Assembly (NCBI GenBank): GCA_938010045.1
Contig: CALLFZ010000025.1
Span: forward strand, 1-43,946
Reading direction: 5' to 3'
Length of the DNA stretch: 43,946 nucleotides
Source: an uncultured bacterium
GTDB taxonomy: Bacteria > Verrucomicrobiota > Kiritimatiellia > PWTM01
Below are positions 16,030 to 43,946 of this stretch, piece after piece (the first letter of the stretch is position 1; each line of letters starts with the position of its first letter). The notes beneath the pieces are model-generated. The model was not told the DNA's origin and did no database searches. It saw nothing but the letters and a program-made list of their open reading frames with translations. Position numbers and translations under genes: made by a program.

Positions 16030-18501
16030 ATGAACACACCTCTTGCGCTGCGAAACCTGGGCGGAATGACCCGGGGGGCCATCTTCGCGGCGGCGCTTGC
16101 GCTCGGCGCGGTGCTGGGGGGCTGCCATACGCCGCCGGAGGAGCCTGTCGAACGGCTAGAACCGGTGCTGTGGGTGCCGTCGCAGCTGCATTGGAGGCCA
16201 ATCGAGTCGGCGCCGGCTGCGGAAGTTACTGTCGGTGAACACGGTCCCTCGGCGCTGTTTCGATGTCCGTTCGACGCGTCGCCGGGAGTGAATAGATTCT
16301 CGTGGGATGCGGCGGTCACGCAGGACCTGTCCGGCGTCGAAACGCTCCGCATCCCGCTGCGCCTTAGGGGTTCGCCATCCGTCGCCTCCCTGTCGCTGTA
16401 CTTCCACAGCGGCCGGGGCTGGTATCACGTTGCGCTACCGCATCCAGCCTCGAGCGGACAGTGGAGCGTGGTGCGCGTGCCGCTCGATCGGGCGAGCGTA
16501 GAAGGCCGGCCGGCGGGATGGAGTCGGATCGACGCCGTGCGATTGTCGGTCTGGCGGGCCGGCACGTCGGCGGCGGAGCTGGCGATGGGACCTGTGCGGG
16601 GGGTGGGCGTCATGGGCCGGGACATATGGGTGGCGGTGGTTCGCCCTCCGCCGGATCACGCCGGATCGGAAACCGGATACGCGAGGCAGCTGGCCGAGGA
16701 GACCGTCGCAGACCTGCGGCACGCGGGCGTACGATGTGCCCTGCTGGATGGCACGGATGTGCTCGAACATTCGGTGTGGAATGCGGCGCGCGTACTGGTG
16801 GTGCCCTATTATCCGAATCCGCCGGCCGCTGTAGTTGAACGCTTGCGCGAGTTCGTCGAGCGCGGCGGTGGTCTGATCATTGCGTACAGCGTTCCGCCGC
16901 GGCTGCAGGATGTCGTCGGCGTGGAGAGCGCCAATTACCTCCGCGATGAGGCGCGCCGCCGGTTCGCCGAGATCCGGCCCTTAGCGGACGCTCTTCCCGG
17001 CGCGCCGCCCTCGTTGCGGCAGTCCTCGCACAACATCTATTCGTTCCGCCCCATCCCAGGCCGATCCGCGCCGCTGGCCGATTGGTATGACGCGGACGGA
17101 CAGCGGGCCGGTCACGCCGCGATCGTGGGCTCCGAGCGCGGGATTATCCTTAGCCACGTGCTGTTCGCCGAGGATGGCGACGCCCGAGCGCGGCTATGGC
17201 GCGCGATGGTGTTTCGTCTCGCACCCGAGGTTGGCAGGGTCACAGCGAAGACCGCGATCGAGACGCTGCCCTTGGCGGTGGGCCGGGAGGTTTGGTCCGC
17301 TGCGGTCGCCGAGATCCGCCGCAGTGCCCCGCGCTTGCGGGCGGTGCGCGAGGACCTCGCTGCGGCGGAGTCGGCTCGCGCGGAGGCGCTTCGCCTGCTT
17401 CAGCGGGGGCATCACCTCGAGGCGATGGATCGAGTGGAACAGGCGCGGCGCCGACTGATTCGCGCCGCCGCCGGCGCCCAACCGCCCACGCCGCTTCGAT
17501 TGCGCGGTTTCTGGTGCCATGACGCCTACGGTGTTCGCGGCCGGACGTGGGAAGAGGCGGTGCGGCGCCTGGCCGAGAACGGCTTCACGGCGGTTCTGCC
17601 CAATGTCAGCTGGGGCGGCGTCGCGTACTATCCGAGCGAGGTGTTGCCGGTTGCGCCCCAGGTTGCGGAGCGCGGCGATGCGTTGGCAGAGTGTGTGGCC
17701 GCCGCCCGGCGGCATGGGATCGAGGTGCACGCCTGGCGGGTGAACTGGAATCTCGGTCCCGCTCCCGCTGACGTGGTGGAACGACTACGCGCGCAGGGCC
17801 GCCTACAGCGCGGGCGTGACGGCGCCGAGCTGCGCTGGCTGTGTCCATCACATCCCGAGAACCAGCGGCTCGAGGTCGAAGCGATGCTCGAGATCGCCAC
17901 GCGATATGAGGTGGACGGCCTTCATTTCGACTACATCCGGTATCCGGACTCCGACCACTGCGTCTGCGACGGCTGCCGCGCCCGATTCGAGGCGCACATC
18001 GGCCGCGCCGTGCCGGCGTGGCCGGATGACCTGCGCCGCGACGAATGGCGGGCCGAGTGGAACGAATGGCGCCGTCGCCAGATCAGCCGCGTCGTCGAGG
18101 AGGTGCATCGCCGCGTTCGCGCGGTGCGTCCCGGCGTGAACATTTCGGCGGCGGTGTTCCCCGAATGGGAGCGCGACCGCGATTTTGTCGCCCAGGATTG
18201 GAAGATCTGGTGCGAGCGAGGTTGGCTCGATTTCGTGTGCCCGATGAACTACACCGACAGCGCCGCCCGGTTCGAGCGACTCGTGGAGCGACAGCTCGAA
18301 TGGGCGGGGGCCGTCCCGCTGTATCCCGGCATCGGCGCGAGCGCCTCCTCTTCGCGCCTTGGCGTGATGCAGGTGATCGAACAGGTGCGCATTGCGGAAC
18401 GGTTGGGTACGGCGGGGTTCGTGCTGTTCAACTACGGAGTGGCGGAATACGAGGAGCTCGTTCCGCTGCTGGGCCTCGGCATTCTCCGGCGTGGTCCGTG
18501 A
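16030..18501 (+). CDS. Lipoprotein with GHL10-like glycoside hydrolase domain
   Basis: The 823-residue protein begins with a lipoprotein signal whose lipobox LGGC puts the lipidated Cys at residue 32. Residues 50-200 look like a beta-sandwich carbohydrate-binding region. Residues 205-400 resemble a class-I glutamine-amidotransferase-like/trimerisation fold (RVLVVPYYPNPPAAVVERLREFVERGGGLIIAY). Residues 490-820 match the GHL10/family-10-like TIM barrel (LRGFWCHDAYGVRGRTWEEAV, AVLPNVSWGGVAYYPSEVLP, LHFDYIRYPD, ISAAVFPEW, FVCPMNY). The FDYIRYP strand end is the expected active-site region. The protein is probably surface- or periplasm-anchored, and its substrate is unknown. It follows the REPIN island. 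Confidence 0.78.
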   Translation: MNTPLALRNLGGMTRGAIFAAALALGAVLGGCHTPPEEPVERLEPVLWVPSQLHWRPIESAPAAEVTVGEHGPSALFRCPFDASPGVNRFSWDAAVTQDLSGVETLRIPLRLRGSPSVASLSLYFHSGRGWYHVALPHPASSGQWSVVRVPLDRASVEGRPAGWSRIDAVRLSVWRAGTSAAELAMGPVRGVGVMGRDIWVAVVRPPPDHAGSETGYARQLAEETVADLRHAGVRCALLDGTDVLEHSVWNAARVLVVPYYPNPPAAVVERLREFVERGGGLIIAYSVPPRLQDVVGVESANYLRDEARRRFAEIRPLADALPGAPPSLRQSSHNIYSFRPIPGRSAPLADWYDADGQRAGHAAIVGSERGIILSHVLFAEDGDARARLWRAMVFRLAPEVGRVTAKTAIETLPLAVGREVWSAAVAEIRRSAPRLRAVREDLAAAESARAEALRLLQRGHHLEAMDRVEQARRRLIRAAAGAQPPTPLRLRGFWCHDAYGVRGRTWEEAVRRLAENGFTAVLPNVSWGGVAYYPSEVLPVAPQVAERGDALAECVAAARRHGIEVHAWRVNWNLGPAPADVVERLRAQGRLQRGRDGAELRWLCPSHPENQRLEVEAMLEIATRYEVDGLHFDYIRYPDSDHCVCDGCRARFEAHIGRAVPAWPDDLRRDEWRAEWNEWRRRQISRVVEEVHRRVRAVRPGVNISAAVFPEWERDRDFVAQDWKIWCERGWLDFVCPMNYTDSAARFERLVERQLEWAGAVPLYPGIGASASSSRLGVMQVIEQVRIAERLGTAGFVLFNYGVAEYEELVPLLGLGILRRGP

Positions 18502-30058: not shown

Positions 30059-33000
30059 ATGCATGCTCGGTTGACTGCTCGGTATGTGCGGGCGCTCGTC
30101 GGAGTGGCAGGGTTGACGTGGTCCACACGCGTGGTTGGCCAGACCACGAATATTTGGGATGGCGACAGCGGCAATGGCTGGGGAGTCGCCGCGAACTGGG
30201 TCGACAACATCGCGTACGGGAGCCAGGTGGTCATCTTCTACAATCCCGGTGCCCTGAACCTCAACACACTGCTCGGCAGCGACCGCAATGCGCACAACCT
30301 CATCTTCAACGACGAGGCGGACAACAACGTCTCCATCAGCGGCGCTAATCGGTTGCGGCTCTTCGCGCCGACGGGAACCGGCTTGGTTGTCCGCGCCGGC
30401 GCCGACGGCAACCACTTCATCGGTTGCACGGCGATCGAAATCACGAACAATCAGATCTGGCATATCGAAACGGCGAATGGCAGCCTGACGGTGGGACCCG
30501 TTCGCGGCGGTCCTGCCTACACTGTCACGAAGACCGGCGCCGGCCTCCTGATCCTGAGCAACAGCGTGGTGGACCTCGGGAATTTCATCGTCTCCGAAGG
30601 AACGGTGCGCTATATCGCAGGCAACGGTTTCCACGACAATAACACGCGCGTGACGGTCCAATCCGGAGCCATTCTTGACAAGAACCACACGGGCATTGAT
30701 GCGTTCCGCGCCCTGCTTGGCAGCGGTGTGGTGAGCAACTGGACCGGCACCTTGCAATTGCGCCCACAGGATGGCGAGTCTTCGCTTTTCAGCGGGACCC
30801 TCTACCAGGGCACCAGCGCGGCGAACTTGCAGGTTACTCTTGACTCCGTCGGCGCAAGCCGGCCGGCGCTGGATGGAAGCGACAACAGCACGCAAGCTTT
30901 CGATGCGTTGGTCCCGTTTACCGGTCAGATTCAAGCCCACAATGGTATTCTCGCGCTGCAGGGGGCGAATGGCGCGGCACCGAACATCGCGGTTGTGGTG
31001 ATTGGGCAAAACAACCGCGGCACCCGGACGCCGACCCTGCTGCTGGATAGCTCGGGTGCCAATCACACGTCGCAGGACCGGCTGCCCGATACCGTTCCCG
31101 TGAGGTTTGACGGTCCCGGCCAGTTGAAGCTGGTCGGCAACTGGATCGCGGGCACCAGCGAGACCATCGGGATCATCACGCAGATCAATGGCCGCGCGAT
31201 AGTGACTTTGGACGCAGACAGTGGGGGCGCGACAACGCTGACGGCCGCACGGTGGGATTTGCCCAATACGGGACGGATTGCGCTGATTCGGGGTGACAAT
31301 CTCGGCGGTCCGGCCGGACCCGATGTGGCGCAGTTGTTGTTCACGACACCTCCGGCTCTCTCGCACATCGGCGGCGTCGGCGATCAAATCGGCATCATCC
31401 CCTTCATGGCGGGTGATACGAACATCGCCGGCGAAGGCTCCGGTTTGGTCACGTACGATGCGTCAACGGGAGTCCGGCTTCTGACGTTGGCCGAGTATGC
31501 GAGCGCCTTGACGCCCGATCGGAATGTTCGGCTGACCGGACCATCCTCCATCGCGGCGAACACGCGCATCCGGGCGCTGTACCTCGACGAGGGAGGAGTT
31601 GCCAATCTGAATGGCAATCTGCTCGTCCTCGACAGTCAGGCGATGTTTCTCGGCGGCGGCACGATCACGAACGGCAGCCTGGCGTTTGGCACGAACACCA
31701 CAGGTACGGCCTCGATCGGGCATGTGCATGCGATCTCCAACACCGTGCTCGGGGCTTCGCTGATTGGACTGCCCAACTCGTTGGGAGAGTCGAAGATTGC
31801 CTTCAGCGGCCCAGCCACTGTAACACTGGTCGCGCCAGGCACGAACTGGACGCCCTTACTGAGTGGCGGTGTTACGCTGAAGACGGCGGCGTCCGAGGTG
31901 ATCCCGGAAGGCACCATGGCCAACGATGAGGGCCATTTGTGGATCGGCGACGGTTTGCGCGAGACCACCGGTTACTTGCGCGGCTTCGGGAAGAGCCAGA
32001 TCACGATCGGCACCAATTCGATCCTCGTTATCAATCAGACGTCAACGGAGTCGTTCTATGGTCTGATCCATGGGCCCGAGTCGGCGGTGTTGGTGAAGGC
32101 GGGCGTGAACACCCTCTCCATCCGGGAAACCGCCACCAACTTCCTCGGCCGCGTTTTTGTGACCAACGGAATCTTAGAATTCATAGATTCTGCCGGGCGA
32201 ATGGCGGCGGCGTCCACGATTCAGTTTTTTGTGACGAACAGCACCCTGGAGCTCGACAACCAGCCGGGTACGGATACCCGGAACCAGAACGACCGGATCC
32301 ACAACGATTCGCCGGTGTACCTGAGCGCCGGCTCGTTTGTGCTGCGGGGCAGCCGCAATGCCAACACGGCCGAAAACATCGGGGACATGATTTTCCAGGG
32401 CGGCATGAACACCATCGTTCTGGATCGGGACAACACGTCGCCGACGCCCGACAACTCGGCGACGTTGAATCCCAATGTCTTTGTGCGCACCAACGGAGCG
32501 ACGCTCTTCATCGACGCCGAGCAGCTTGCGTTCGCGACGAATGCGGCGTGGACCCGTCTCTACAAGGACAACACGTTGCCGGCGCCGCTGCTGACCCACC
32601 CATATGTGTCGAATTCGCCGACCATCGGCATCGTACACTGGGCGTACGGTCGCGACCTGGGCAGTGCCGTCTGGGCGACGAACTGGTCCGGCGACGAGTA
32701 CGGGTTCGTGACCTACGACGACGGCGGCTCGCCCGATCTGGGATTCCGCTTCCTCCAACCCGCTGAATACAACACCAATACTCTGGCCTCGGGTGGAAAT
32801 GTCATTGTGCGGATTGCGACCAATGAGGTGGTTCTGCTGCAAAACAACTCGAAAGTTCAAGGGCTGGTGCTGAACAAGTATCTTAGCGGAACGGCGGAAG
32901 GCGGTCTCAACTTGTCCAATTTCGTGTTGCACATCGAGAGTGCGATGCTCGCCAGCGGGACCAACCAGAGTGGATCCGTGCTCACGATCCGTCGCTCCGG

Positions 33001-34147
33001 CAGCAATGGCGCGTTGATGTTCGGCAACTCGAGCAACAACTACGAAGCGGTGATTCACGCCACGCGACGTCTCGATGTCTTCGCGCCGATCATGGACAAC
33101 ATTGTGAACGACGTGACGAACTCGACGTCGCTCATCAAGAGCGGCCCGGCGGAGCTTGTGTTGCGCGTGGCGGACGGGGCCGGCGGTGCGCAGTTTTCGA
33201 CGTATTCGGGCGACACCTACGTCAATGCGGGCATTCTGCGACTCGAGGGCACCAGCACGTGGTCCTACACGAGCTTCAACGTGATCCCGACCAACACCCG
33301 GGTGTTCATCAACAGCCGCGATGCCACGCTGGAATTCTGGAATGCGGGCCAAACGATCGCGGGCCTGTATGGCTACGGCCGGGTGCACTTGAACAGCGGC
33401 GGCAACACTACGAACCGGCTCGTGATCAATTACACGGATACCAACGAAGTGGACCGGTTCGACGGATGGTTCGCCGATGGAGCGGCCAACCGTCATCTTG
33501 AGGTCGTAAAAACCGGCGCGGGCACGCTCGAGCTGACCGGCGGTAGCGCGGCGAGCACCCATCGGGGCCGTACGATCATCGCCGAGGGCGAGCTGCGCAT
33601 GAACGGACAGCACATCCGGACCGATGCGGCCGCGACGTGGATCGTTCTCTCCAACGCGACGCTAAGCGGCACGGGATTGATCCGCACCCAGGGCGGTGTG
33701 ATTGTGACCAATTTTGGCCGGATCGCTCCGGGCGCCAGCGCAGGCACCTTGACCATTGATGCCAATCTAGTGCTGTCCCAAGAATCGGTGCTTCTCTTTG
33801 AGCTCAACGGGACTGATCAGTCTGTCGGTGGCGGGGTCAACGACCTGATTGACGGAGTGAACAACCTGACGTTGGACGGCATTCTGGAGGTGACGCCGCT
33901 GGCCAGTTTTGCGGGCGCGAGCATCGGGGATTACTGGACCCTCATCCGCTATGACAACGCGCTGACGGACAACGTGCTGGATATCAGCCCGGCCACGCAG
34001 TCGCTGTTGACGGGCGGAAAATCCTTTGCGATCGACACGAGCGTGGCGAACGAGATTCGTCTGGTCATCGTGCCTGAGCCTTCCACGTTGGGGTTGTTCG
34101 GTCTAGTTGCGGTGGGCCTCCTTCTGCGCCGCCGGCTTAGGGGTTAA
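30059..34147 (+). CDS. Giant secreted PEP-CTERM protein with autotransporter-type beta-strand repeats
   Basis: The 1362-residue protein has a signal peptide (ARYVRALVGVAGLTWSTRVVG, cut near GQTTNIW). Its body is almost all Asn/Thr/Gly-rich beta-helix-like repeats. Passenger-associated-repeat units are visible as KTGAGLLILSNSVVDLGNF, IKSGPAELVLRVADGAGG and VKTGAGTLELTGG...GRTIIAEGELRMNG. It ends with VPEPSTLGLFG, a hydrophobic stretch and RRRLRG, a textbook PEP-CTERM signal cleaved by an exosortase (not in this window). There is no beta-barrel translocator, so it is not a true type V autotransporter. Its composition is less Ala/Arg-rich than its neighbours, as expected for a surface protein. 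It is probably a matrix or cell-surface component. Confidence 0.85.
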   Translation: MHARLTARYVRALVGVAGLTWSTRVVGQTTNIWDGDSGNGWGVAANWVDNIAYGSQVVIFYNPGALNLNTLLGSDRNAHNLIFNDEADNNVSISGANRLRLFAPTGTGLVVRAGADGNHFIGCTAIEITNNQIWHIETANGSLTVGPVRGGPAYTVTKTGAGLLILSNSVVDLGNFIVSEGTVRYIAGNGFHDNNTRVTVQSGAILDKNHTGIDAFRALLGSGVVSNWTGTLQLRPQDGESSLFSGTLYQGTSAANLQVTLDSVGASRPALDGSDNSTQAFDALVPFTGQIQAHNGILALQGANGAAPNIAVVVIGQNNRGTRTPTLLLDSSGANHTSQDRLPDTVPVRFDGPGQLKLVGNWIAGTSETIGIITQINGRAIVTLDADSGGATTLTAARWDLPNTGRIALIRGDNLGGPAGPDVAQLLFTTPPALSHIGGVGDQIGIIPFMAGDTNIAGEGSGLVTYDASTGVRLLTLAEYASALTPDRNVRLTGPSSIAANTRIRALYLDEGGVANLNGNLLVLDSQAMFLGGGTITNGSLAFGTNTTGTASIGHVHAISNTVLGASLIGLPNSLGESKIAFSGPATVTLVAPGTNWTPLLSGGVTLKTAASEVIPEGTMANDEGHLWIGDGLRETTGYLRGFGKSQITIGTNSILVINQTSTESFYGLIHGPESAVLVKAGVNTLSIRETATNFLGRVFVTNGILEFIDSAGRMAAASTIQFFVTNSTLELDNQPGTDTRNQNDRIHNDSPVYLSAGSFVLRGSRNANTAENIGDMIFQGGMNTIVLDRDNTSPTPDNSATLNPNVFVRTNGATLFIDAEQLAFATNAAWTRLYKDNTLPAPLLTHPYVSNSPTIGIVHWAYGRDLGSAVWATNWSGDEYGFVTYDDGGSPDLGFRFLQPAEYNTNTLASGGNVIVRIATNEVVLLQNNSKVQGLVLNKYLSGTAEGGLNLSNFVLHIESAMLASGTNQSGSVLTIRRSGSNGALMFGNSSNNYEAVIHATRRLDVFAPIMDNIVNDVTNSTSLIKSGPAELVLRVADGAGGAQFSTYSGDTYVNAGILRLEGTSTWSYTSFNVIPTNTRVFINSRDATLEFWNAGQTIAGLYGYGRVHLNSGGNTTNRLVINYTDTNEVDRFDGWFADGAANRHLEVVKTGAGTLELTGGSAASTHRGRTIIAEGELRMNGQHIRTDAAATWIVLSNATLSGTGLIRTQGGVIVTNFGRIAPGASAGTLTIDANLVLSQESVLLFELNGTDQSVGGGVNDLIDGVNNLTLDGILEVTPLASFAGASIGDYWTLIRYDNALTDNVLDISPATQSLLTGGKSFAIDTSVANEIRLVIVPEPSTLGLFGLVAVGLLLRRRLRG

Positions 34148-34285
34148 CGCGCAGCGGCGGTGCGGTCCTGGCGCGCGATCTCCCCGGCCGCCCACAATAA
34201 GGGCGCCGTTCCGTTCGTTCATCGAAACGCGGGGTGTGGATAGTTGTCGGCACCCGCCGGCGATAGCCTCGCAAGGAGTGATGCG

Positions 34286-35065
34286 ATGAGCGGAACGAGT
34301 CATTGGCTGATGGTGGCCCTGGCGGCCTTTTTGATGAATGCACCGTCGGTCTTCGCGCGCGAGGGTGCGCCGCGACCACCGGATCGGCGCCCGCCGTCTC
34401 GCCGGGAAATGGCTCGACGCCCGGCGATGCCGCCGTGGCAGAATCCAGAATGGCGGGCCCGCGTGGCGGAGCGCCTACGCTCGGCGCCGCCGGAGTGGCG
34501 CCGGGAGATGCTCCGGCGGTACATGCAGATGCACGCGCGGCGCTGGGGGACCGGCATGGGCTGGGCTCCGCCGCGCGGAATGAAGGAACCTGCCCGGCCG
34601 ATGTGGGGGCCGTGTCCCGGCAGACCGGGATGGGGCGTGGGGCGCGGTCCTGCGCCGCAATGGTACGGTCGGGGATTCTGCTCCCCGCGCGGCATGCCTC
34701 CCTATGCGGGCGGTCCGTGGGCGCAGTATCCGAAGCAGCATCCGAGGAGAGGTGCCGGGCCGCGGGACCATGCGGAGCATCCTCCACGGCATCCTGAACG
34801 GCCGCCGCAACCTCCGGCGATGAGCCGTCCGCCCGGCGGGCAATCCTCTCCGCCGTCCGAGGAAATGGCCCGCCGGATGCGCGAAATGGACGAGCGCCTC
34901 GAGGCAAAACGCCGCGAGATCGAGAAGGCTCGTGAGGAACTGCGCCGCCGCGAACAGGAACTCCGCGAACGCGTTGAACGTCGGCAGCGTGAGGCCCGCG
35001 AGCGCGCCAAGGACGAGCCGCGGCGCGATGCCGACCAAGGGCGCCGCGGACGTCCTCGCGCCTGA
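34286..35065 (+). CDS. Exported Pro/Arg-rich protein with C-terminal coiled coil, unknown function
   Basis: The start at ATG 34286 is chosen for its AAGGAG box 7 nt upstream. It gives 259 residues with a signal peptide (HWLMVALAAFLMNAPSVFA). The mature part is very rich in Pro, Arg, Gly and Trp (residues 25-195), with a helical patch WRARVAERLRSAPPEWRREMLRRYMQ that faintly recalls Spy/CpxP-type periplasmic proteins. Residues 200-255 form an unbroken Glu/Arg/Lys coiled coil (MDERLEAKRREIEKAREEL). No family is recognised. It follows the PEP-CTERM gene by 138 nt and may be co-expressed. Antisense open frames here are compositional. Confidence 0.6.
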   Translation: MSGTSHWLMVALAAFLMNAPSVFAREGAPRPPDRRPPSRREMARRPAMPPWQNPEWRARVAERLRSAPPEWRREMLRRYMQMHARRWGTGMGWAPPRGMKEPARPMWGPCPGRPGWGVGRGPAPQWYGRGFCSPRGMPPYAGGPWAQYPKQHPRRGAGPRDHAEHPPRHPERPPQPPAMSRPPGGQSSPPSEEMARRMREMDERLEAKRREIEKAREELRRREQELRERVERRQREARERAKDEPRRDADQGRRGRPRA

Positions 35066-35129: not shown

Positions 35130-35540
35130 ACGTCGCGGGCGGCCGCTGGCGTAGATGGCGGGGATCGCCGACACCTTCCGGCGCAGCGGTTTGAGCCGGG
35201 CCACGCCTTCCTGGGCGCTCTTCAGCACGCGGCGATTGAGATGATGCACAAGGTTGTAGCTCGCCATCCCGATCGGCAGATCGCCGCCTCCGTGCCCGAG
35301 AAACTGTGCACGTTGAACTCGCGCCACCTGTCTCCTTCCTTCCGTTCCTCGATCGCGTTCTCCTCCTTGGCCCGCAAGCGGTAGATGCGCCAGATCTTTT
35401 TGGGGACCACGACCGTGTGGTTGGTCACCAGCACGCTGTAGCGATAGTCCCGGTGCTCTTCCAGGTCCCGGAATAACATCGGCGGCTTGCCGCCGGGCCG
35501 GCGGTCGGGCCTCGCGTTCAGCGCCCGCGGCGGCACCCAC
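35130..35540 (-). pseudogene. IS1380-like transposase C-terminal remnant, frameshifted
   Basis: In one frame the - strand reads LFRDLEEHRDYRYSVLVTNH, then KKIWRIYRLRAKEENAIEE and FNVHSFSGTEAAIC down to about 35278. From about 35267 it continues in another frame as GMASYNLVHHLNRRVL and LKPLRRKVSAIPAIYASGRPR. Together these follow the C-terminal half of IS1380-type DDE transposases: the YRY..VTN strand, the Y..RA..EN.IEE motif carrying the catalytic Glu, the AYNL helix and the LR.KV.AIPA segment. The N-terminal half and any terminal repeats are not recognisable. It is a dead fragment just upstream of the sigma-factor operon. Confidence 0.65.
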
Positions 35541-35734
35541 CGGTTGTCCCGCGCTGCCACGTGGCATGAGGCGGCCGTCGCCCCAGCGGTATGGTATCCG
35601 GAGTCATTCCGCTCGCGCGTCCGCGCATCCCGCCGATCGGGCCACAACCGGAGCCGGTCGGCGCCGGCCTCCTGCGGGGCCCCCACCTTGCGCAGGCTCG
35701 GCAAACGGCCGCGGTTGGCGGAATGATACTGTGA

Positions 35735-36268
35735 ATGGACCACTCGGCCGATGACCGTCAAGAAGCGTTTCTGCGTCTCTATGCGCAGCACGAGCCGGCG
35801 TTGCGCGCGTTTGTGCGTTCACAGGTGCCGATGGTCGCCGACGCGAACGACGTGATGCAGGAGATGGCCATTGTGTTGTGGCGGAAGTTTGGCGAGTACG
35901 CGACCAGCGAGGATTTCCGGCGTTGGGCATTTGGCGTGGCACGGTTCAAGGTGCTGGCGTGGCAACGAGACCGCATGCGTGACCGTCACATCTTCGGGGC
36001 AGATCTGACCGAATTGCTCGCGACTGAGTCGGAGATCGAGTCGGCGCGATTGGAGCGACAACGGGAAGTGTTGCGCGAGTGTCTAGACGAGCTGCCGACG
36101 GAACATCGTCGTTTGGTCGAGACTGCCTACGCGCCCGGCACGCGGATAGACAAGTTGGCCGAGCGCTGGGGCCAGACGGCCATGACGCTGTACAAGCGGC
36201 TGCATCGCATTCGACTCGCATTGGTGGACTGCACACGAGGCCGGCTGCGGCAGGAGGGGTGGCTGTGA
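35735..36268 (+). CDS. ECF-type RNA polymerase sigma factor
   Basis: The 177-residue protein has region 2 (FLRLYAQHEPALRAFVRSQV, ADANDVMQEMAIVLWRKF, FRRWAFGVARFKVLAWQRDR) and region 4 (ECLDELPTEHRRLVETAY, IDKLAERWGQTAMTLYKRLHRIRLAL). This matches the sigma-70 subgroup common in Rhodopirellula and Verrucomicrobium relatives. It starts at ATG 35735. Its stop overlaps the GTG of the FecR-like gene (GTGA), a standard sigma/anti-sigma arrangement. It likely drives this operon and perhaps other glycan genes. Confidence 0.92.
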   Translation: MDHSADDRQEAFLRLYAQHEPALRAFVRSQVPMVADANDVMQEMAIVLWRKFGEYATSEDFRRWAFGVARFKVLAWQRDRMRDRHIFGADLTELLATESEIESARLERQREVLRECLDELPTEHRRLVETAYAPGTRIDKLAERWGQTAMTLYKRLHRIRLALVDCTRGRLRQEGWL

Positions 36269-37896
36269 AGACGCCCGATCCGCGTTTGGAATGGATGCGG
36301 CAGTATGTCGAGGGAGTCGCCGCGGCGGAGACGGTGGCGCAACTGGAACAGGCGTTGCGAGAGGACGCCGCATTCCGGAAGTTGTTTCTTGAATATCTAA
36401 ATATCGATCTGGCCCTTTCGACCGGCGCCGCCCTTTCGCCGCCCAACGCGCGCGGCAGGGGGGGGGCGCCTGTCGCGACGCGATCGTATCGGCTCATGGC
36501 GTGGGCCGCGGTGGCCGCGGCGGTCTCGATGATGAGCGCGGCGGCGCTGTGGTGTTCGATGGAGCGCAGGGTGCGGCGCACGCCCGCGGTGCACCTCCTC
36601 GCCGGTTACGTGGCGACCTTGACGGCACAAGACGACGCCGTCTGGCAACAGTCCGGCGCCTTTCGAACCGGGCAGCGGCTTATGCCGGGACCTCTGCGGT
36701 TGGATCGCGGTCGGGCCGTGATCCGGTTCGACGCCGGAGCCCGCATGGTGGTCACGTCACCCGCCGAAGTGTGTCTGGAATCGCCGGGCTGTGTGCGGGT
36801 GATCTCCGGCCAAGTCGCGGTTCAGGCCGAGGAGGAAGCGGCGGGGTTTCGCGTGCTTACGCCGGACGGCATGGCGGTGGACCTGGGCACCGAGTTTGTC
36901 GTTGCCGTCCATCCGTCAGCCGGCACCGAGTGCCAGGTGCTGGAGGGCGAGGTGGAATGGTATTCCCGCGACGGCCGGCAACGACTGGCCACGCTCAGCC
37001 GTGGACAGGCGCGTCGGATTCGGGCTGGTGAACTCAAGGTCATCGAATCGAAGCCGGCGGAGATTGTGCGCCGGATATTGGTGCCGCCGGCCTTGCGGGC
37101 CGGCGGGGGCCGCCTGCTGGCCTACGAGTCGTTCGATTACAACGAGGGCGACGCACCGGCCGAGTCGTTGGCGGGCGGATACGGTTGGTTGGCGCCATGG
37201 CGCGGACGCTACATTCCCTCGGATGTTGTGGATGTGGACCCGCTGATGCGGGTGCGCGCTGGCGAGAGCTTGATGTTTCCCGGCATCGCCGGCGGAGAAG
37301 GTGGCCGGTTTGTCTTTCATGAGATGAAGCAGTGGCGAATGCGGCTGCTGGCGACGCCGGTGGAATTCGGGCGGGATGGCGTTTACTACCTGAGCTGGCT
37401 TGCACGGCGGCCCTCGCATCCGCCCCCGGTCAAAACGCCGTATGGTCGAATGGCGATCACGTTGCGCTGCTCGACGAACTACTGGGCGCACTCGATCAGT
37501 TTCGCAATCAGTTCGGCGAACCGACCGCTGCTGATGGCCGATGGCAACAACCGGGTGGCCGACCGGGCGTTGCCGGCCAACGCGACGTTGCTGGTCGTGG
37601 GCAAGGCGGTCACCTCGCGGCACGGCCCAGACCAATTGTTCATGAAAGTCTACGAGCCCGGGGAGACGGTTGACGTGGAGGACCCGGCCGTCTGGACCGT
37701 GGCGAGTGAGCATCTTCATTTGGACGCTGCGTTGGACATCTTGATTCTCGGCAACACGGGAGGCGCGGCATGGGAACTCGACGAGTTGCGCTACGGCGCC
37801 TCCTGGGGAGCGGTGCTGCCCGCAAACAGCCGCGACGTTACCGCGATGTCGTCATGGTCCGCATGCGATCAACCCAGACCCAGGAGAGGTTCATGA
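36265..37896 (+). CDS. FecR-like membrane protein with LamG/concanavalin-like C-terminal region
   Basis: The protein is 543 residues from GTG 36265, with AGGAGGGG just upstream. Residues 1-60 form a cytosolic helical region (EWMRQYVEGVAAAETVAQLEQAL) fit for binding sigma. A membrane segment follows (LMAWAAVAAAVSMMSAAALW, about 76-95). Residues 115-260 form the FecR domain (GQRLMPGPLRLDRGRAVIRF, FRVLTPDGMAVDLGTEFVV, VLEGEVEWY). The remaining roughly 275 residues (LLAYESFDYNEGDAPAESL onward) look like a LamG-type beta-sandwich, suggesting carbohydrate sensing outside the membrane. Its stop overlaps the next ATG. Confidence 0.85.
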   Translation: MKTPDPRLEWMRQYVEGVAAAETVAQLEQALREDAAFRKLFLEYLNIDLALSTGAALSPPNARGRGGAPVATRSYRLMAWAAVAAAVSMMSAAALWCSMERRVRRTPAVHLLAGYVATLTAQDDAVWQQSGAFRTGQRLMPGPLRLDRGRAVIRFDAGARMVVTSPAEVCLESPGCVRVISGQVAVQAEEEAAGFRVLTPDGMAVDLGTEFVVAVHPSAGTECQVLEGEVEWYSRDGRQRLATLSRGQARRIRAGELKVIESKPAEIVRRILVPPALRAGGGRLLAYESFDYNEGDAPAESLAGGYGWLAPWRGRYIPSDVVDVDPLMRVRAGESLMFPGIAGGEGGRFVFHEMKQWRMRLLATPVEFGRDGVYYLSWLARRPSHPPPVKTPYGRMAITLRCSTNYWAHSISFAISSANRPLLMADGNNRVADRALPANATLLVVGKAVTSRHGPDQLFMKVYEPGETVDVEDPAVWTVASEHLHLDAALDILILGNTGGAAWELDELRYGASWGAVLPANSRDVTAMSSWSACDQPRPRRGS

Positions 37897-38948
37897 ACAC
37901 GACCCGTTCGCAATTGAAGCCGAGCCGCCGGCAATTCCTCGGCGCCAGTTTGGCGGCCACCGCCGGGATGTTGGGGGCCGCCGCCCCGGGCGGAATGGTG
38001 CCGAATCCAAACGATGGAAACGGCGGGATCAAGGTGGGCCTGTACAGCATCACCTACCTGGGCATCTGGTATCAAGGCGAGGCGCTGACGCTGCAGCAGG
38101 TGGTGCAGCGGGCGAAGCGGTACGGCTATGATGGCGTCGAACTCGACGGCAAACGCCCCCACGCCAATCCCCTCGACTGGCCCACAGCCAAGTGCCGGGA
38201 ATTTCGGTCGTTCGCCGAGGACAACGGCATCGCCGTGTATGCCGTTGCCGCCAACAACGACTTCAGCAGCCCGATTCCGGAGCGCCGGGAGGCAGAGATC
38301 GCCTATGTGAAGGAGCTGATCCGCATGACCGCGGATTTCGGCGCGCCCGTGCTGCGCGTGTTTTTGGCATGGTCCGGAGTGACGCGGCATCCGAAACTGG
38401 CGCGGTACGACATTGCGGAAGAAATCTGGGCGTTCACTCAGAAGGGATTTACGGACTGGCAGCGGTGGGTGTGGTGCCGAGAATGTTTGACCGAAGTGGC
38501 GCGGTATGCGGCGGATCACGGCGTCACGTTGGCGCTGCAGAATCACCGGCCGGTCATTCGCGATCATCACGACGTGGTGCGGATGATCAAGGAAGTGGGC
38601 TCGCCCCATCTGAAGGCGTGTCTCGACGCGCCGAACATGCCGGACAAGACTCCGGCCAGCGTTCGCCAGGCGGCGTTCGATGTCGGCGGCGCGCTCCAGG
38701 TCCTCTCGCATTTCGGCGGGGAATACCAACGGGAGCGGGACGGCTCGATCGCGGGCGGCCATGAGATGTATCCGGCCTTCATTCGAGCGATGACGGAACT
38801 CGGCTACACAGGATACATCGGCTACGAACTCTGCCACACATTGCCGGTTGTCAATGGCCAAACGGTGGGCATCGAGTACGCGGATCAATGCGCCGAACTG
38901 GCCTGCGAATACATGCGCGGCGTTATCCGAGAGGCGCGCGCGCGTTGA
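37893..38948 (+). CDS. Tat-exported sugar phosphate isomerase/epimerase-like TIM-barrel protein
   Basis: The protein is 351 residues from ATG 37893, which overlaps the FecR stop (ATGA) and follows CAGGAGAGG. The N-terminus SRRQFLGASLAATAGMLGAA is a twin-arginine signal. The xylose-isomerase-like AP-endonuclease-2 barrel is seen in IKVGLYSITYLG, RAKRYGYDGVELDGKRP, GAPVLRVFLAW, GVTLALQNH (the metal-binding region), LKACLDAPNM and YTGYIGYELCH. The family isomerises or epimerises sugars and inositols. Export places it in the periplasm, which is common for this group in PVC bacteria. Confidence 0.82.
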   Translation: MNTTRSQLKPSRRQFLGASLAATAGMLGAAAPGGMVPNPNDGNGGIKVGLYSITYLGIWYQGEALTLQQVVQRAKRYGYDGVELDGKRPHANPLDWPTAKCREFRSFAEDNGIAVYAVAANNDFSSPIPERREAEIAYVKELIRMTADFGAPVLRVFLAWSGVTRHPKLARYDIAEEIWAFTQKGFTDWQRWVWCRECLTEVARYAADHGVTLALQNHRPVIRDHHDVVRMIKEVGSPHLKACLDAPNMPDKTPASVRQAAFDVGGALQVLSHFGGEYQRERDGSIAGGHEMYPAFIRAMTELGYTGYIGYELCHTLPVVNGQTVGIEYADQCAELACEYMRGVIREARAR

Positions 38949-38988
38949 TGTTGGCACGACGCCGCCCGATGGAAAGGAGAGGATGGCG

Positions 38989-39915
38989 ATGAAGAGGCGC
39001 GCCTTCGTGCCAACGCCGACACTGGCCGCGATGGCTTCGGTGGGATATCGCGAGGTCTTCGGGGGCCGCGCTGCCAAGCCCGACCGCATCGGCTGCACCA
39101 CGTTGTCATTCCGGATGCGGTTCCCCGCCACGCGGCGAGAGGGCGTCATCGCCACGGAGCCGGACCTGGATTGCTCGATGGGCCGGCGTTGTTCGTGGAG
39201 CGGCTCGGGATTCGCCACGTCGAGGTCTGGAGCCAGCATGTTCCGGAACCGACCGTGGCGTACGCCGAACGATGGCGCGCGGCCGCCGACCGCGCCGGCG
39301 CGCGCATCGTCAACATCCAGCAGGACGAGCCGCCGTTCGACCTGTCCAGTGCCGACGCCGATCCGCGGCGCGCGTGCATCGAGGCGACGCGGCGATGGAT
39401 GGACATCGCCGCCGCCTGCGGCGCGGCGTCGTTGCGCGCGAACGTCGGTGGGCAACCGAACGACCCGTTCGATCTCGCCATCACATCCGATTCATTTCGG
39501 CGATGCGGAATACGGGGAGAGAATCGGCGTCAAGATTCTGATCGAGAACCATGGCGGCCACAGTGAGAAGACCGACAACATCGCGGCCATCATCCAGCCA
39601 GTCAACCGTGCGTGGCGTCGATCGCTCCCGGACTTTTACAACGTGCCGGCGGAGTTCACCACTGAACAACGCGTGGCGTTCCTCGCCCCGATTCTGCCCT
39701 TCGCTCAGCTTGTCTCCGTCAAAGGCGTGGAGTTCGACGCCGATGACCGTTGTGTCAGCTACGACATCGGCGCGTGTGTGCGGGCCGCCGAGGCCGCGGG
39801 GTTCGACGGACTGTATTCGGTTGAGCTGTGGTCCCCGAACTACGTGGCTCTGGCCACGGCTCGCGCCATCCGGAGCGTTGCCGACACCATCCGGAAGTAT
39901 CTGTCACCGATGTAA
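38989..39915 (+). pseudogene. Second sugar isomerase/epimerase-like gene, broken by two compensating frameshifts
   Basis: The frame begins MKRRAFVPTPTLAAMASVGY (ATG 38989, AGGAGAGG upstream) and reads well to EPDLD near 39170. The homologous text then jumps frame: LLDGPALFVERLGIRHVEVW, AERWRAAADRAGARIVNIQQDEPP and GGQPNDPFDLAIT, to about 39480. It returns to the first frame for EYGERIGVKILIENHGGHSEKTDN, QLVSVKGVEFD and GFDGLYSVELWSPNY. The pattern fits a 1-nt loss near 39170 and a 1-nt gain near 39485. No stop interrupts the first frame, so a protein with about 105 scrambled residues could still be made. It may be a true pseudogene or two sequencing errors. Confidence 0.75.
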
Positions 39916-39930
39916 CGGAAAGGAACGACG

Positions 39931-41313
39931 TTGACAACCCGAAAGATTACACGGCGCGGATGCCTGAAATCTGCCGCCGCTGTCGGCGCGGCCTTCCACC
40001 TCGTTCCACGCCACGTGCTGGGCGGCGCGGGGCGCGTGCCGCCCAGCGAGCAGGTCAATCTGGCGGGCATCGGCGTGGGCGGCATCGGATTTAGCCAGCT
40101 CGCATCCTGCGAGCAGGCGGGCTTCCGCATCGCCGCGCTGTGCGACGTGGACGATGTCTATGCGAAAACGGCGTACGACCGCTGGCCCATGGCGCGGCGG
40201 TACCGCGATTTCCGGGAGCTGCTGGAAGCCGAAGGCGACCGAATTGACGCGGTGTATTGCGGCACCCCGGACCACACGCACGCGGTCATTGTGTTGGCTG
40301 CCCTGCGGCGGAAGAAGCACGTGTGCAGCGTCAAGCCGCTCACCCGGACCATCGAAGAGCTGGACATCGTGGTCGCCGCTGCGCGGAAGGCCGGCGTGGC
40401 CACGCAAGTCACCGTGATTCCGAACACCAGCGAGTCGGCCTGTCGCACCTGCGAACAAATCTGGGCGGGGGCCGTCGGCGCGGTGCGCGAGGTCCACATC
40501 TGGAGCAATCGTCCGATCTGGCCACAAGGCATGCCGCGCCCTCCTGGCGAGGACCCTGTGCCGGCCACGTTCGACTGGGAGTTGTGGCTCGGCCCCGCGC
40601 CGTTCCGCCCGTTCAAGAGCGAATGGGCCAGCGATGATCTGGCATTGCGGCAGATCGCGGGGATTCGCGACAAGACGCCGCACTCGACGGCGGTCTATCA
40701 TCCGTGGAACTTTCGCGGCTGGTGGGATTTTGGCACCGGCGCGCTGGGCGACATGGGGTGTCACCATCTGAACACGCCGTATCGAGCCCTCCGGTTGGAG
40801 CACCCGGTTGCGGTGGAAGCCACCACCACGCGCCGCTTCGAGGAGAGCGCGCCGCTGGCCTCCATCGTTACGTTCGAGTATGCGGCCCGCGGGGATATGC
40901 CGCCGGTGCGAGTGATCTGGTACGATGGGGGCTTGAAACCGCCTCGTCCGTCCGCGCTGAACAAGCCGCTGGCCGATGAAGGCGTGCTCTACGTCGGGGA
41001 CGAGGGAATGATGTTTTCGCCCGCGCTCCTTTCGCCGGAGCGCGCCGCGAAGTTCGCCGGCACGCCCAGAACCCTGCCTCGCCGCGGCGGCACGTGGGTG
41101 GAATGGATGGAAGCGATTCGCGGCGGCGAGAAGGCTGGTTGCCATTTCGATTGGGCGGCGCTGTTGACCGAGGCCGTGCTGCTCGGCAACATCGCCATCC
41201 GCACCGGACGGCGCATCGAGTGGAACGCCGCGGCGCGGCGCATCATCAACGACGAATCGGCGAATCTCCTCCTGGGGGCGTCCTACCGCGACGGGTGGAC
41301 GCTGCAACCGTGA
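39931..41313 (+). CDS. Tat-exported Gfo/Idh/MocA family oxidoreductase
   Basis: The 460-residue protein starts with TTG, 15 nt after the previous stop, behind AAAGGAA. The N-terminus ITRRGCLKSAAAVGAAFHL is a twin-arginine signal. The Rossmann part has VNLAGIGVGGIGFSQL and AALCDVDD. The catalytic segment usually written EKP reads SVKPLTRT, keeping the Lys but with Val for Glu. GTPDHTHAVIVLAAL and FGTGALGDMGCHHLNTPYRAL are typical of the exported Planctomycete/Verrucomicrobia subfamily. It oxidises, reduces or epimerises sugars using NAD(P). The stop overlaps the GNAT GTG (GTGA). Confidence 0.88.
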   Translation: MTTRKITRRGCLKSAAAVGAAFHLVPRHVLGGAGRVPPSEQVNLAGIGVGGIGFSQLASCEQAGFRIAALCDVDDVYAKTAYDRWPMARRYRDFRELLEAEGDRIDAVYCGTPDHTHAVIVLAALRRKKHVCSVKPLTRTIEELDIVVAAARKAGVATQVTVIPNTSESACRTCEQIWAGAVGAVREVHIWSNRPIWPQGMPRPPGEDPVPATFDWELWLGPAPFRPFKSEWASDDLALRQIAGIRDKTPHSTAVYHPWNFRGWWDFGTGALGDMGCHHLNTPYRALRLEHPVAVEATTTRRFEESAPLASIVTFEYAARGDMPPVRVIWYDGGLKPPRPSALNKPLADEGVLYVGDEGMMFSPALLSPERAAKFAGTPRTLPRRGGTWVEWMEAIRGGEKAGCHFDWAALLTEAVLLGNIAIRTGRRIEWNAAARRIINDESANLLLGASYRDGWTLQP

Positions 41314-41750
41314 ACCCGCCCCGACATCCCGACCGGCGACGACGGCGATTCGAACTGGGGGTGGCGCCGCCGTCCGACGATCTGCGGCGCCTGTTGGCCC
41401 ACACCTCGTGGGCCGCGAACCGAACGGAGGCCGACATCGCCGCGAGGATCCAATGCACTCCGCTGTTCGTCGTGGCGCGAGACGGCGCCACGACGATCGG
41501 ATTCGGACGGGCGTTGACCGACGGGACATACCGGGCGTTGCTGGACGACATTGTCGTGGCCGAAGACCGCCGGGGCCGCGGCATCGGCGCTGCCATCGTG
41601 GAATCGCTTTTGAGGGAATTGGCGGATGTGGAAGAAGTGGTTCTCAACACCGAAGAGTCGCTGCGCGGCTTCTACGAGAGACTCGGGTTCCGCCCGTTCA
41701 CAGGGCTGACGATGGTGCGGCGCAATTCAACCCCTACGGTATCCATATGA
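41310..41750 (+). CDS. GNAT family N-acetyltransferase
   Basis: The protein is 146 residues from GTG 41310, overlapping the oxidoreductase stop. The acetyl-CoA loop is VVAEDRRGRGIGAAIVESLL (R/Q-x-x-G-x-G/A), followed by EEVVLNTEESLRGFYERLGF, the strand-4/helix-5 end of the fold. The N-terminus (VNPPRHPDRRRRRFELGVAPP) is short and basic. The substrate is unknown. Its presence inside a glycan operon suggests acetylation of an amino sugar or of a toxic intermediate. The stop overlaps the next ATG (ATGA). Confidence 0.8.
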   Translation: MNPPRHPDRRRRRFELGVAPPSDDLRRLLAHTSWAANRTEADIAARIQCTPLFVVARDGATTIGFGRALTDGTYRALLDDIVVAEDRRGRGIGAAIVESLLRELADVEEVVLNTEESLRGFYERLGFRPFTGLTMVRRNSTPTVSI

Positions 41751-43000
41751 TCGAGATCACAAGGACGTCGACAGCTCTTGCCCTCACGTTTGCAGCCGGC
41801 GCGGCATCGCTGTCCGCGTCGGAGGCCCCGGTGCATCACGGCGGCCAGGCCGATGGCCTGCCGTTGTGCGTCCACGTCCGCACGGTGTTGCCGGACGACG
41901 ACTGGCGTCACATCGCGGCGCGGTATGGATTGGTCGTGACACTGTTTTCTCCCATGGATGAGAACCCGGATTTGATCAAGGAGAACGAGCGGGTGAGGTG
42001 GGTCAAATCCCTGAACCCCGATCTGAAGGTGCTCGTCTATGGCAGCGTCATCAACGCCGCCAATGTCCGTCTACCGCCGGCCGACAAGTCCGCCGGCTGG
42101 TTTCTCAAGAACGAGCACGGTGGCCCGGTGGTCCAGCATTTTTTCGGCGGCCATCATCTCGATCCCGGCAACGAGGAGTGGCGGGAGTTCATGGGGCGGG
42201 CTTATGCGGACGCCATCGCCCGTTACGGCTACGACGGGGTGTGGGTCGATCTGGTGGATTCGACGACGCAATACGTCAACTTCAAGCAACCGTCGCCGGC
42301 GGTGAATCCGAAGACGGGCATGGCATACACCGATGCGGAGTGGAAGGCGGCTACGATGGGGTTCCTGCGCGTCGTGCGACGCCACATCGGCGACCGCTGG
42401 ATGGTGATCAACGGCGCACACGGGCGGAAGTATTTCAGCACCGGCTATGCCGATTATCTCGAGGTGGCGGACGGCATGCAAAACGAAGCGTTCACCGGCT
42501 GGAAACAGAATCCGATGCAGCGGTTCCGCATGAGCGAAGAGGAATGGAAGGCCGATGTGGATGCGTTGGCCGATGTGGCCCGGCGCGGCAAGATCATGGT
42601 CGCCGTCGCGAATCTGAAAGGGCGGGAAGACTCGGAGCCGTGGGATGCGTATGAGACTCGATACCGCTTCGTCGCTGCCAGCTTTCTGCTCGGCATGGGC
42701 GAGCGGCATTTCCTGAGATTCTACGGGCAGGACCCGGGCACGCCCGGCATCTATCGGCCCGGACGCGAGATCCGCCCCATGTTCTGCGAAGCCGCGCTGG
42801 GCCGGCCGCTCGGGGCGTACCAAATGAGCGATGGGCTCTATCGGCGCGACTTCGAAAACGGCCTGGTGCTGGCGAATCCGACGGGACGCGAGATGCAAGT
42901 TCCGCTGACCGGTCAGTGGAAGACCGCTGAGGGCCAGCCGGTGGACTCGCCGCTGACGCTGCCTGGGCACACGGGCGCCATTCTGGTACGCGGGAGCTGA
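41747..43000 (+). CDS. Secreted putative glycoside hydrolase, GHL15-like
   Basis: The protein is 417 residues from ATG 41747, with a signal peptide (STALALTFAAGAASLSA). The TIM-barrel pattern fits the hypothetical glycosyl hydrolase 15 (GHL15) group: LVVTLFSPMDENPD, LKVLVYGSVINAA, HHLDPGNEEWREFMGRAYADA and YGYDGVWVDLVDS (likely acidic active-site strand), then NGAHGRKYFSTGYADYLEVADGMQNEAF. A beta-rich domain closes the protein (NGLVLANPTGREMQVPL). It probably acts in the periplasm or at the surface on the glycan that this operon serves. It is the last gene of the array. Confidence 0.7.
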   Translation: MIEITRTSTALALTFAAGAASLSASEAPVHHGGQADGLPLCVHVRTVLPDDDWRHIAARYGLVVTLFSPMDENPDLIKENERVRWVKSLNPDLKVLVYGSVINAANVRLPPADKSAGWFLKNEHGGPVVQHFFGGHHLDPGNEEWREFMGRAYADAIARYGYDGVWVDLVDSTTQYVNFKQPSPAVNPKTGMAYTDAEWKAATMGFLRVVRRHIGDRWMVINGAHGRKYFSTGYADYLEVADGMQNEAFTGWKQNPMQRFRMSEEEWKADVDALADVARRGKIMVAVANLKGREDSEPWDAYETRYRFVAASFLLGMGERHFLRFYGQDPGTPGIYRPGREIRPMFCEAALGRPLGAYQMSDGLYRRDFENGLVLANPTGREMQVPLTGQWKTAEGQPVDSPLTLPGHTGAILVRGS

Positions 43001-43067
43001 CGCCTCGGACCTTCCGGTCTCGTGGCGGGCCGGCCCGCATTGCCGTCCGTCCGCGTACCTGCCGCCA

Positions 43068-43497
43068 TCCGAACAGCGGTCGCACGTGGCGATCACCGAT
43101 GTTGGCGGCGACGCGCCGGGCAATCGGATCGCGATACCGCTCCAGCGCGTCGTGGAAGTCCCGTCCCATGTCGGCGGCGATGGGGTCGGCGACGTGGAAC
43201 AGTTGCCGCAAAGCCGGGTTGAACATCGGCTGGGTGGGGTTGTGGTCCAGGGCGGCGACTAGCGCGGCGGCATCCATCGCGGCGACGGCTTCGGGCGGCG
43301 GACGCCGCTCCCGTTGGATGCCAATGACGGCGGTGTAGGGTCGATGAGCGCGTCGAAGCGGGGTCATGCGCGGCGGTAGATTCCCTTGACGAGGCCGAGT
43401 GCCTCGCCGCCGCCGGCGGACGCCAGACCGGCGACCTCCTCGAGCCAGGTCATCCCTGCGGTCTTCACGTGCAGCCCGGCGTCGGTCTCGCGGCGCC
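43068..43497 (-). pseudogene. Tagaturonate epimerase (UxaE)-like C-terminal remnant
   Basis: On the - strand, RETDAGLHVKTAGMTWLEEV and GGGEALGLVKGIYRR read in one frame from about 43497 to an in-frame TGA (43366-43364). RFDALID then continues in the same frame. From about 43337 the text shifts to YTAVIGIQRERRPPPEAV, FNPALRQLFHVADPIAADMG and ARRVAANIGDRHVRPLFG. From memory of the family, the LHVKTAG.TWLEE segment, the LRQL.HV segment and RH..PLF match the C-terminal third of UxaE-type epimerases, which act on hexuronates. One stop and one frameshift make it a dead fragment. The call rests on pattern memory only. Confidence 0.5.
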
Positions 43498-43499
43498 CG

Positions 43500-43946
43500 G
43501 CGCAGCTCGTCCATCGCCGCTCGATCGTCCGCCGAGTCGGCCAGATTGCGCGTCTTGCACGGGTCGGCGACGAGGTCGTACAACTCCTCCGGCGGTTTCG
43601 GCTCCCAGAAGCGCCGCTGCAGATCGTTCAGCCGGTCGGCCTCGTACAGATCCGTCCAGACGCGGGTGGTGGGGGGCTCGAATAGGTAGGCGATGTGGTG
43701 CCCGTAGATCCGGTGCGGCAGAGAGTGATGGCCGTACACGTAGCGGGCGGAGCGCGCCGATCGGACCATGTCGACGTGTTCGTTCATCCGGCCGCGGAAG
43801 CCGAACTGAAAGGTTGGCGCGGCGGCGGCCCAGGGACCGAGAAACGCGCGGCCCTGCGTGCATTCCGGCGGCCGAATCCCGGCCAGGCTCAGGACGGTGG
43901 GCGCCAGGTGGACGAAGCCGACCAGCCGCTCCCACTCGCCGCCGAA
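43500..43946 (-). CDS. Sulfatase, C-terminal part (start outside window, end disrupted)
   Basis: The frame is open from the right edge. It shows VHLAPTVLSLAGIRPPE (the usual D/H..PT.L.LAGI segment), FGFRGRMNEHVDMVRSARSARYVYGHH, YGHHIAYLFEPPTTRVWTDLYEADRL, and WEPKPPEELYDLVADPCKTRNLAD, the classic sulfatase ending. Such enzymes desulfate glycans. The N-terminal half with the Cys/Ser formylglycine site is outside the window. After DELRRA the sulfatase pattern stops and a UxaE-like fragment follows in another frame, so the last few residues have been replaced. The gene may still encode a working enzyme, because the lost tail is usually short. Confidence 0.82.

Follow-up and report, generated by a model that had tools for sequence, protein, structure and literature searches.

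What would a sigma factor gene and the gene of its membrane partner be doing at the head of a closely spaced run of sugar enzyme genes, several of which carry signals for export? This question is raised by positions 35735-43000 of a contig (CALLFZ010000025.1, assembly GCA_938010045.1) from an uncultured bacterium of the class Kiritimatiellia (phylum Verrucomicrobiota), the window being the whole stretch of 43,946 nucleotides (nt) that was analysed. The original prediction, made from the letters of this DNA alone, had read the run as a self-regulated glycan operon, and it holds in part, both for what it observed and for how it explained it. The answer towards which we lean, at a little better than even, is a small operon led by an extracytoplasmic function (ECF) sigma factor and a FecR-type membrane regulator, which would control an oxidoreductive (3-keto) deglycosylation carried out outside the cytoplasm. 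The gene order, the overlaps, the families, the export motifs, the active-site layout of one isomerase and the break in the other can be read from the DNA itself, and the genes, together with the ectodomain of the regulator, are as follows.

35735..36268, forward strand: ECF sigma factor of 177 amino acids (aa), of the TIGR02989 Rhodopirellula/Verrucomicrobium family, with a Sigma70_r2 domain.
36265..37896, forward strand: FecR-type regulator, with an N-terminal cytoplasmic part, a transmembrane helix near aa 77-97, a FecR domain and a C-terminal beta-sandwich ectodomain.
37075..37893, forward strand: ectodomain of the FecR protein, a predicted lectin-like beta-sandwich of ~270 residues, 24-28% identical to 10 homologous domains of the class.
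37893..38948, forward strand: isomerase 1 (PF01261 / AP_endonuc_2, E 5e-32), with a TIGR01409 twin-arginine translocation (Tat) signal over the cut-off; candidate 3-keto-glycoside beta-eliminase or hydratase.
38989..39915, forward strand: isomerase 2 (PF01261), with a twin-arginine motif and two frame changes, and no intact protein in this assembly.
39931..41313, forward strand: Gfo/Idh/MocA oxidoreductase with a twin-arginine motif, matching NF058561 BT_2158_fam; candidate glycoside 3-dehydrogenase.
41310..41750, forward strand: GNAT N-acetyltransferase (PF13508, E 2e-13), in which no signal peptide was seen.
41747..43000, forward strand: secreted putative glycoside hydrolase of the GHL15 family (PF14885, E 4.5e-23), with a Sec-type N-terminus.

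These seven genes meet at six joins, and the four stop/start overlaps of 4 nt that had been claimed for them match the letters exactly: GTGA at 36265-36268 (sigma stop and FecR start), ATGA at 37893-37896 (FecR and isomerase 1), GTGA at 41310-41313 (oxidoreductase and GNAT) and ATGA at 41747-41750 (GNAT and GHL15), with gaps of 15-40 nt at the other two joins. As a baseline, 20 stretches of the same genome (~359 kb) were examined with genes chosen by frame composition, a crude picker, and same-strand neighbours were counted whenever the downstream frame has a start at the 4-nt position, which marks a possible and not a proven start. Joins of this kind are usable in 53 of the 185 same-strand neighbours that lie outside the window, in 57 of the total of 205, and in 57 of 148 close pairs. 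Given that such a join could be used by 29-39% of adjacent gene pairs on the same strand, four overlaps in six joins are ordinary (the probability of four or more is 0.06 to 0.16), the idea of an unusual signature was rejected, and the overlaps have no special meaning by themselves. The FecR gene is preceded by the ribosome site AGGAGGG, isomerase 1 and isomerase 2 by the good ribosome-binding sequences AGGAGAGG and AAAGGAGAGG, respectively, and the oxidoreductase, which has a TTG start, by AAAGGAA. As no good ribosome-binding sequence was found upstream of the GNAT and GHL15 genes, their translation probably depends on translational coupling.

That a sigma/FecR pair heads the closely spaced enzyme genes, several of them with export signals, is borne out by the TIGR02989 and PF04773 matches and by the signal motifs. 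The sigma factor scores 166.2 bits against TIGR02989 (cut-off 124.55), which places it in that family, and the protein encoded beside it, whose start overlaps the sigma stop, has the membrane helix and the FecR domain (PF04773 at aa 177-231, 27.3 bits, cut-off 24) of a FecR-type sigma regulator. In two genomes of the genus (L026:1091-3225 and L033:281-2415), a TIGR02989-type sigma gene is overlapped by the gene of a 545-aa partner, which has weak zinc-finger and squalene-cyclase-like matches and is not FecR.

The ectodomain of the regulator had been called LamG-like, a term that holds for the predicted fold but not as a family name. Its predicted structure (pLDDT 77) is all-beta, in the manner of a lectin-like beta-sandwich, and among its Foldseek matches are L-type lectin, X122, calreticulin and jelly-roll domains, with low TM-scores of 0.3-0.5, but neither the ectodomain nor any of its ten homologous domains matches LamG/Laminin_G, or any other model, in Pfam. 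The family to which it belongs (L071, L062, L082) has the consensus AYEGFDYxxGxLxG...DEIRxGxxW, and because several of the homologous domains stand in tandem in secreted proteins, it is, on this evidence, a mobile surface domain.

With regard to the enzymes, the oxidoreductase matches NF058561, the "glycoside 3-dehydrogenase" BT_2158_fam, with an E-value of 6e-112 and 375 bits, which is 320 bits closer than inositol dehydrogenase, and its match to the levoglucosan dehydrogenase NF052479 is weak (51 bits, cut-off 650). The solved dehydrogenases PDB 8tdf and 8tdh match it over both domains (E ~1e-80), and these two entries probably belong with a paper from the Withers group on a broad pathway of the gut (Nature 2024). 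The GHL15 protein belongs to its family (PF14885, 83 bits, cut-off 27), and a search for a solved relative gave none. Twin-arginine motifs are found on both isomerases and on the oxidoreductase, and the Sec-type N-terminus on the GHL15 protein completes the export motifs.

When the profile of isomerase 1 was searched against the PDB, ketose 3-epimerases came out on top (E ~1e-10), DgpB/C-type AP_endonuc_2 chains were weak (E ~0.002) and AtOGE (8BVK) was absent from the matches even at E 10; the folds similar to its predicted model include those of psicose epimerase, DgpB-C and the 3-keto-D-glucoside 4-epimerase YcjR. The site is laid out as Q216, H218, D245, H273 and E312, all of them invariant in the two homologues described below, and the QNH motif (Q216-N-H218) places a histidine at +2 from the beta-5 ligand. 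The residues Q216/D245/H273/E312 and H218 parallel His132/Asp163/His189/Glu233 and His134 of AtOGE, in which the catalytic His134 stands at +2 from His132 and the H134A variant is inactive (PMC10628242). The predicted site of isomerase 1 thus retains the arrangement of metal ligands and a histidine at +2 that is seen in 3-keto-glycoside beta-eliminases. One isomerase elsewhere in the same genome (C11) was considered as a relative and set aside, as BLAST gives no real relation.

Exported 3-keto deglycosylation is favoured because the described Lgd, Agrobacterium and BT2156-2159 pathways join the same families. In the pathway that we infer, with respect to its signal, substrate, chemistry and direction of steps as well as to autoregulation and co-transcription, the lectin-like ectodomain would sense a glycan or the state of the cell surface, the sigma factor would be released, and its own operon would be transcribed. 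The secreted GHL15 protein would shorten a polysaccharide or glycoside, the Tat-exported oxidoreductase would oxidise a glycosyl unit at its C3 hydroxyl, and isomerase 1, a putative metal-dependent TIM barrel, would take the C2 proton and expel the leaving group, or else hydrate the resulting keto-glycal, with a reduction that would restore the cofactor and the sugar. A more specific form of this proposal, in which a sigma/FecR-controlled, Tat-exported 3-keto system would have the ectodomain as its glycan sensor, GHL15 as its polysaccharide-cutting partner and isomerase 1 as the enzyme that defines a Gln-ligand subfamily of beta-eliminases or hydratases, we consider quite unlikely. If the general proposal is true, the recently described oxidise-and-eliminate breakdown of glycans would stand directly under ECF sigma control in a class of bacteria that has been little studied, and GHL15, a hydrolase family that is still "hypothetical" by its Pfam name, would gain a testable role.

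A number of findings weigh against this proposal. The score of the oxidoreductase is only half of the equivalog cut-off of NF058561 (750), so that it is no more than a candidate for this exact activity. Among solved sequences, isomerase 1 is nearest to the 3-epimerases of D-tagatose and D-psicose, and it carries Gln as the beta-5 ligand, as against Glu in the CGEs and His in AtOGE. The operon contains no second oxidoreductase, DUF1080 protein or transporter, and since isomerase 2 is split over two frames and there is no other candidate for a keto-glycal hydratase in the operon, we regard it as a locus that would work in the manner of the 3-keto pathway and do not count it as a complete member. 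On the regulatory side, a consensus scan upstream of the sigma gene found no promoter-like site, and five sigma genes whose preceding 160 bp were compared have no ECF-like box pair in common, so that the sigma-factor motif proposed as a check upstream of 35735 did not emerge. Similarly, no TonB-dependent transducer, as would be part of Fec-type cell-surface signalling, is present in the operon or among the Pfam-scanned proteins of the window, a genome-wide search not having been made.

The gene order itself also counts against the proposal, as it has been seen only once. Scans were made of 346 genomes of the class, 338 of the phylum and 85,000 species, the last being limited in reach to near relatives of isomerase 1, and in none of them was the exact order found again; its conservation in relatives, which had been named in advance as the test of the prediction, was thus searched for and not found, and a conserved operon was rejected. 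Close relatives of isomerase 1 are absent from the class and phylum genomes, and the GHL15 protein has no other match there at E<=1e-20. Homologues of isomerase 1 that are 58-60% identical occur in two metagenome-assembled genomes (MAGs), alone in one (L038), and in the other (L039, a Verrucomicrobia MAG, 60%) between two ThuA genes (PF06283 "Trehalose utilisation"), and oxidoreductase homologues of 56-62% occur in two genomes (G006 and G013) without the other operon genes. This patchy distribution suggests horizontal acquisition of the locus. On a looser reading, the plan of "sigma/FecR + keto-chemistry oxidoreductase + hydrolases" recurs, by predicted gene content, at least once with a different cargo, given that a single run in another family of the class (L025:403-11217) holds a sigma factor, FecR, a GDSL esterase, a BT_2158-family oxidoreductase and two rhamnosidase-like hydrolases. 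This recurrence, and the place of the L039 homologue between ThuA genes, speak for the favoured explanation. Two further candidates, G000 C11 of the same genome and G001 C17 of the same genus, each with a sigma match close to an oxidoreductase, were set aside, as the gene between them is, in our reading of the protein, similar to inosine monophosphate dehydrogenase and not FecR.

The claim of two exported isomerases, on the other hand, did not hold, as isomerase 2 is not one open gene but passes into another frame in its middle part. The Pfam search places profile positions 4-87 of AP_endonuc_2 in the frame of 39171-39566 and positions 112-241 in that of 38986-39915, and a genome-wide search for PF01261 finds positions 4-86 at 39195-39437 and 112-242 at 39505-39879, again in different frames; GC content by codon position locates the switch at ~39130-39180 and the return at ~39440-39510. 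In two genomes that belong to another family, distant relatives with 33-35% identity each occupy a single open frame. Because 21 other AP_endonuc_2 genes that are clearly over the cut-off in this genome, and likewise five copies of the oxidoreductase, each read in one frame, isomerase 2 is either really broken or the site of a local assembly fault. A programmed frameshift was set aside, as it would need two separate changes and a short alternative product is not apparent.

As a variant of the favoured explanation, and not exclusive of it, the frame changes may be assembly or sequencing errors, in which case both isomerases of the operon would be in working order, like those of the Lgd and Agrobacterium operons. 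We hold this tentatively, as a serious possibility that falls short of even: the two changes cancel and leave both ends of isomerase 2 in one frame, third-position GC is strong in each segment, the ribosome site at the start is good, and such pathways use two PF01261 enzymes, yet the unbroken state of the other clear PF01261 genes and of the five oxidoreductase copies in the same assembly indicates that errors are infrequent. Given the break in this assembly, the pathway may work with isomerase 1 alone, borrow another of the ~20 PF01261 proteins of the genome, or be decaying.

The last of these options leads to a rival explanation that we consider unlikely, namely that unrelated sugar genes, either decaying or recently assembled, accompany a sigma/FecR pair as passengers from mobile elements, with no working pathway. 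The upstream flank has the following feature, which ends ~165 bp before the sigma gene begins.

35297..35569, reverse strand: IS1380-type transposase remnant (NF033539, E 1.4e-4 over profile positions 273-356 of 419; PF13701, E 8e-4), far below the cut-offs and consistent with a decayed fragment.

This remnant, the break in isomerase 2 amid 21 other clear PF01261 genes that are open, an apparent frame shift in the convergent sulfatase frame at 43000-43946, and the lack of close relatives of isomerase 1 and GHL15 in the class and phylum samples all speak for such an origin, but the remaining genes are tightly spaced, overlapping and mostly provided with good ribosome sites, and intact in the case of isomerase 1, the oxidoreductase, GNAT and GHL15, and the composition is just slightly atypical (GC 0.652 versus 0.674 +/- 0.020, with a tetranucleotide distance at the 87th percentile). 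These values are near the genome norm and give no strong sign of transfer. Nevertheless, the transposase remnant, the broken isomerase 2, the sulfatase frame change and the patchy distribution point to a locus that is mobile or eroding. The weakest rival, and an improbable one, is polyol, inositol or ketose metabolism, in which isomerase 1 would be a 3-epimerase of ketoses or resemble inosose dehydratase and a free sugar or cyclitol would be the substrate of the oxidoreductase, a reading for which the epimerases nearest to isomerase 1 and weak matches of isomerase 1 to myo-inosose dehydratase and of the oxidoreductase to inositol 2-dehydrogenase can be cited, whereas the 320-bit preference of the oxidoreductase for BT_2158_fam, twin-arginine motifs ill-suited to cytosolic ketose metabolism and a secreted glycoside hydrolase in the same gene run argue against it.

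Around the operon, the convergent gene at 43000-43946 (reverse strand) is a partial, sulfatase-like one that holds the C-terminal region (SGSH_C, a weak match), with its apparent frame change near 43480-43500, and except for this partial gene nothing was found that would favour sulfated or uronic-acid glycans. Upstream, on the forward strand, there are a large protein of the autotransporter type (30059-34147), which has a passenger-associated repeat and ends in a PEP-CTERM tail, and, after it and before the transposase remnant, an arginine/proline-rich open frame without a Pfam match (34244-35065). Farther away, a GHL10 glycosyl hydrolase-like protein (16030-18501, forward strand) has a long N-terminal part of no assigned type.

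Finally, the statement that no pathway with this exact set has been described is narrowly true, but its chemistry has been described, and the favoured 3-keto pathway is not unknown in kind, because a Gfo/Idh/MocA oxidoreductase with PF01261 proteins is the enzyme set of a known route of oxidation, beta-elimination, hydration and reduction. For example, BT2156-2159 of Bacteroides thetaiotaomicron form a periplasmic 3-keto-glycoside pathway (PMC11300592; PMC12385236) in which BT2158 is a periplasmic glycoside 3-dehydrogenase (PMC11300592); the locus studied here shares the BT_2158-family oxidoreductase, at half the equivalog cut-off, and enzymes with export motifs, but differs from it in having no second dehydrogenase or DUF1080 hydrolase and in having the sigma/FecR pair, GNAT and GHL15. 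The levoglucosan operon lgdA-lgdB1-lgdB2-lgdC, whose products LgdA/LgdB1/LgdB2/LgdC perform oxidation, elimination, hydration and reduction (PMC7676230), likewise joins a Gfo/Idh/MocA dehydrogenase to two "sugar phosphate isomerases", for which the assignment to PF01261 has been stated (PMC10066097), whereas in the present operon one of the two isomerases is broken, a partner of the LgdC kind is absent, the enzymes have export motifs, the sigma/FecR pair leads and the match to NF052479 is weak. Similarly, the GlycDH/OGE/HYD operon of Agrobacterium tumefaciens has an oxidoreductase and two "sugar phosphate isomerases" (PMC10628242) of the PF01261 type, with a comparable metal site and +2 histidine, but isomerase 1 has Gln and not His at beta-5 and its profile does not recover AtOGE. 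As for regulation, the FecI/FecR-type pairs and the PVC-type pairs of TIGR02989 with FecR are matched by a sigma factor over the cut-off and an adjacent FecR protein with one helix, as in the L025 run, the differences being that no TonB-dependent transducer stands alongside and that the FecR protein here ends in a lectin-like beta-sandwich. The locus is best placed with two known kinds of system, the glycan loci led by a sigma/FecR pair and oxidoreductive deglycosylation, of which it would be a new form.

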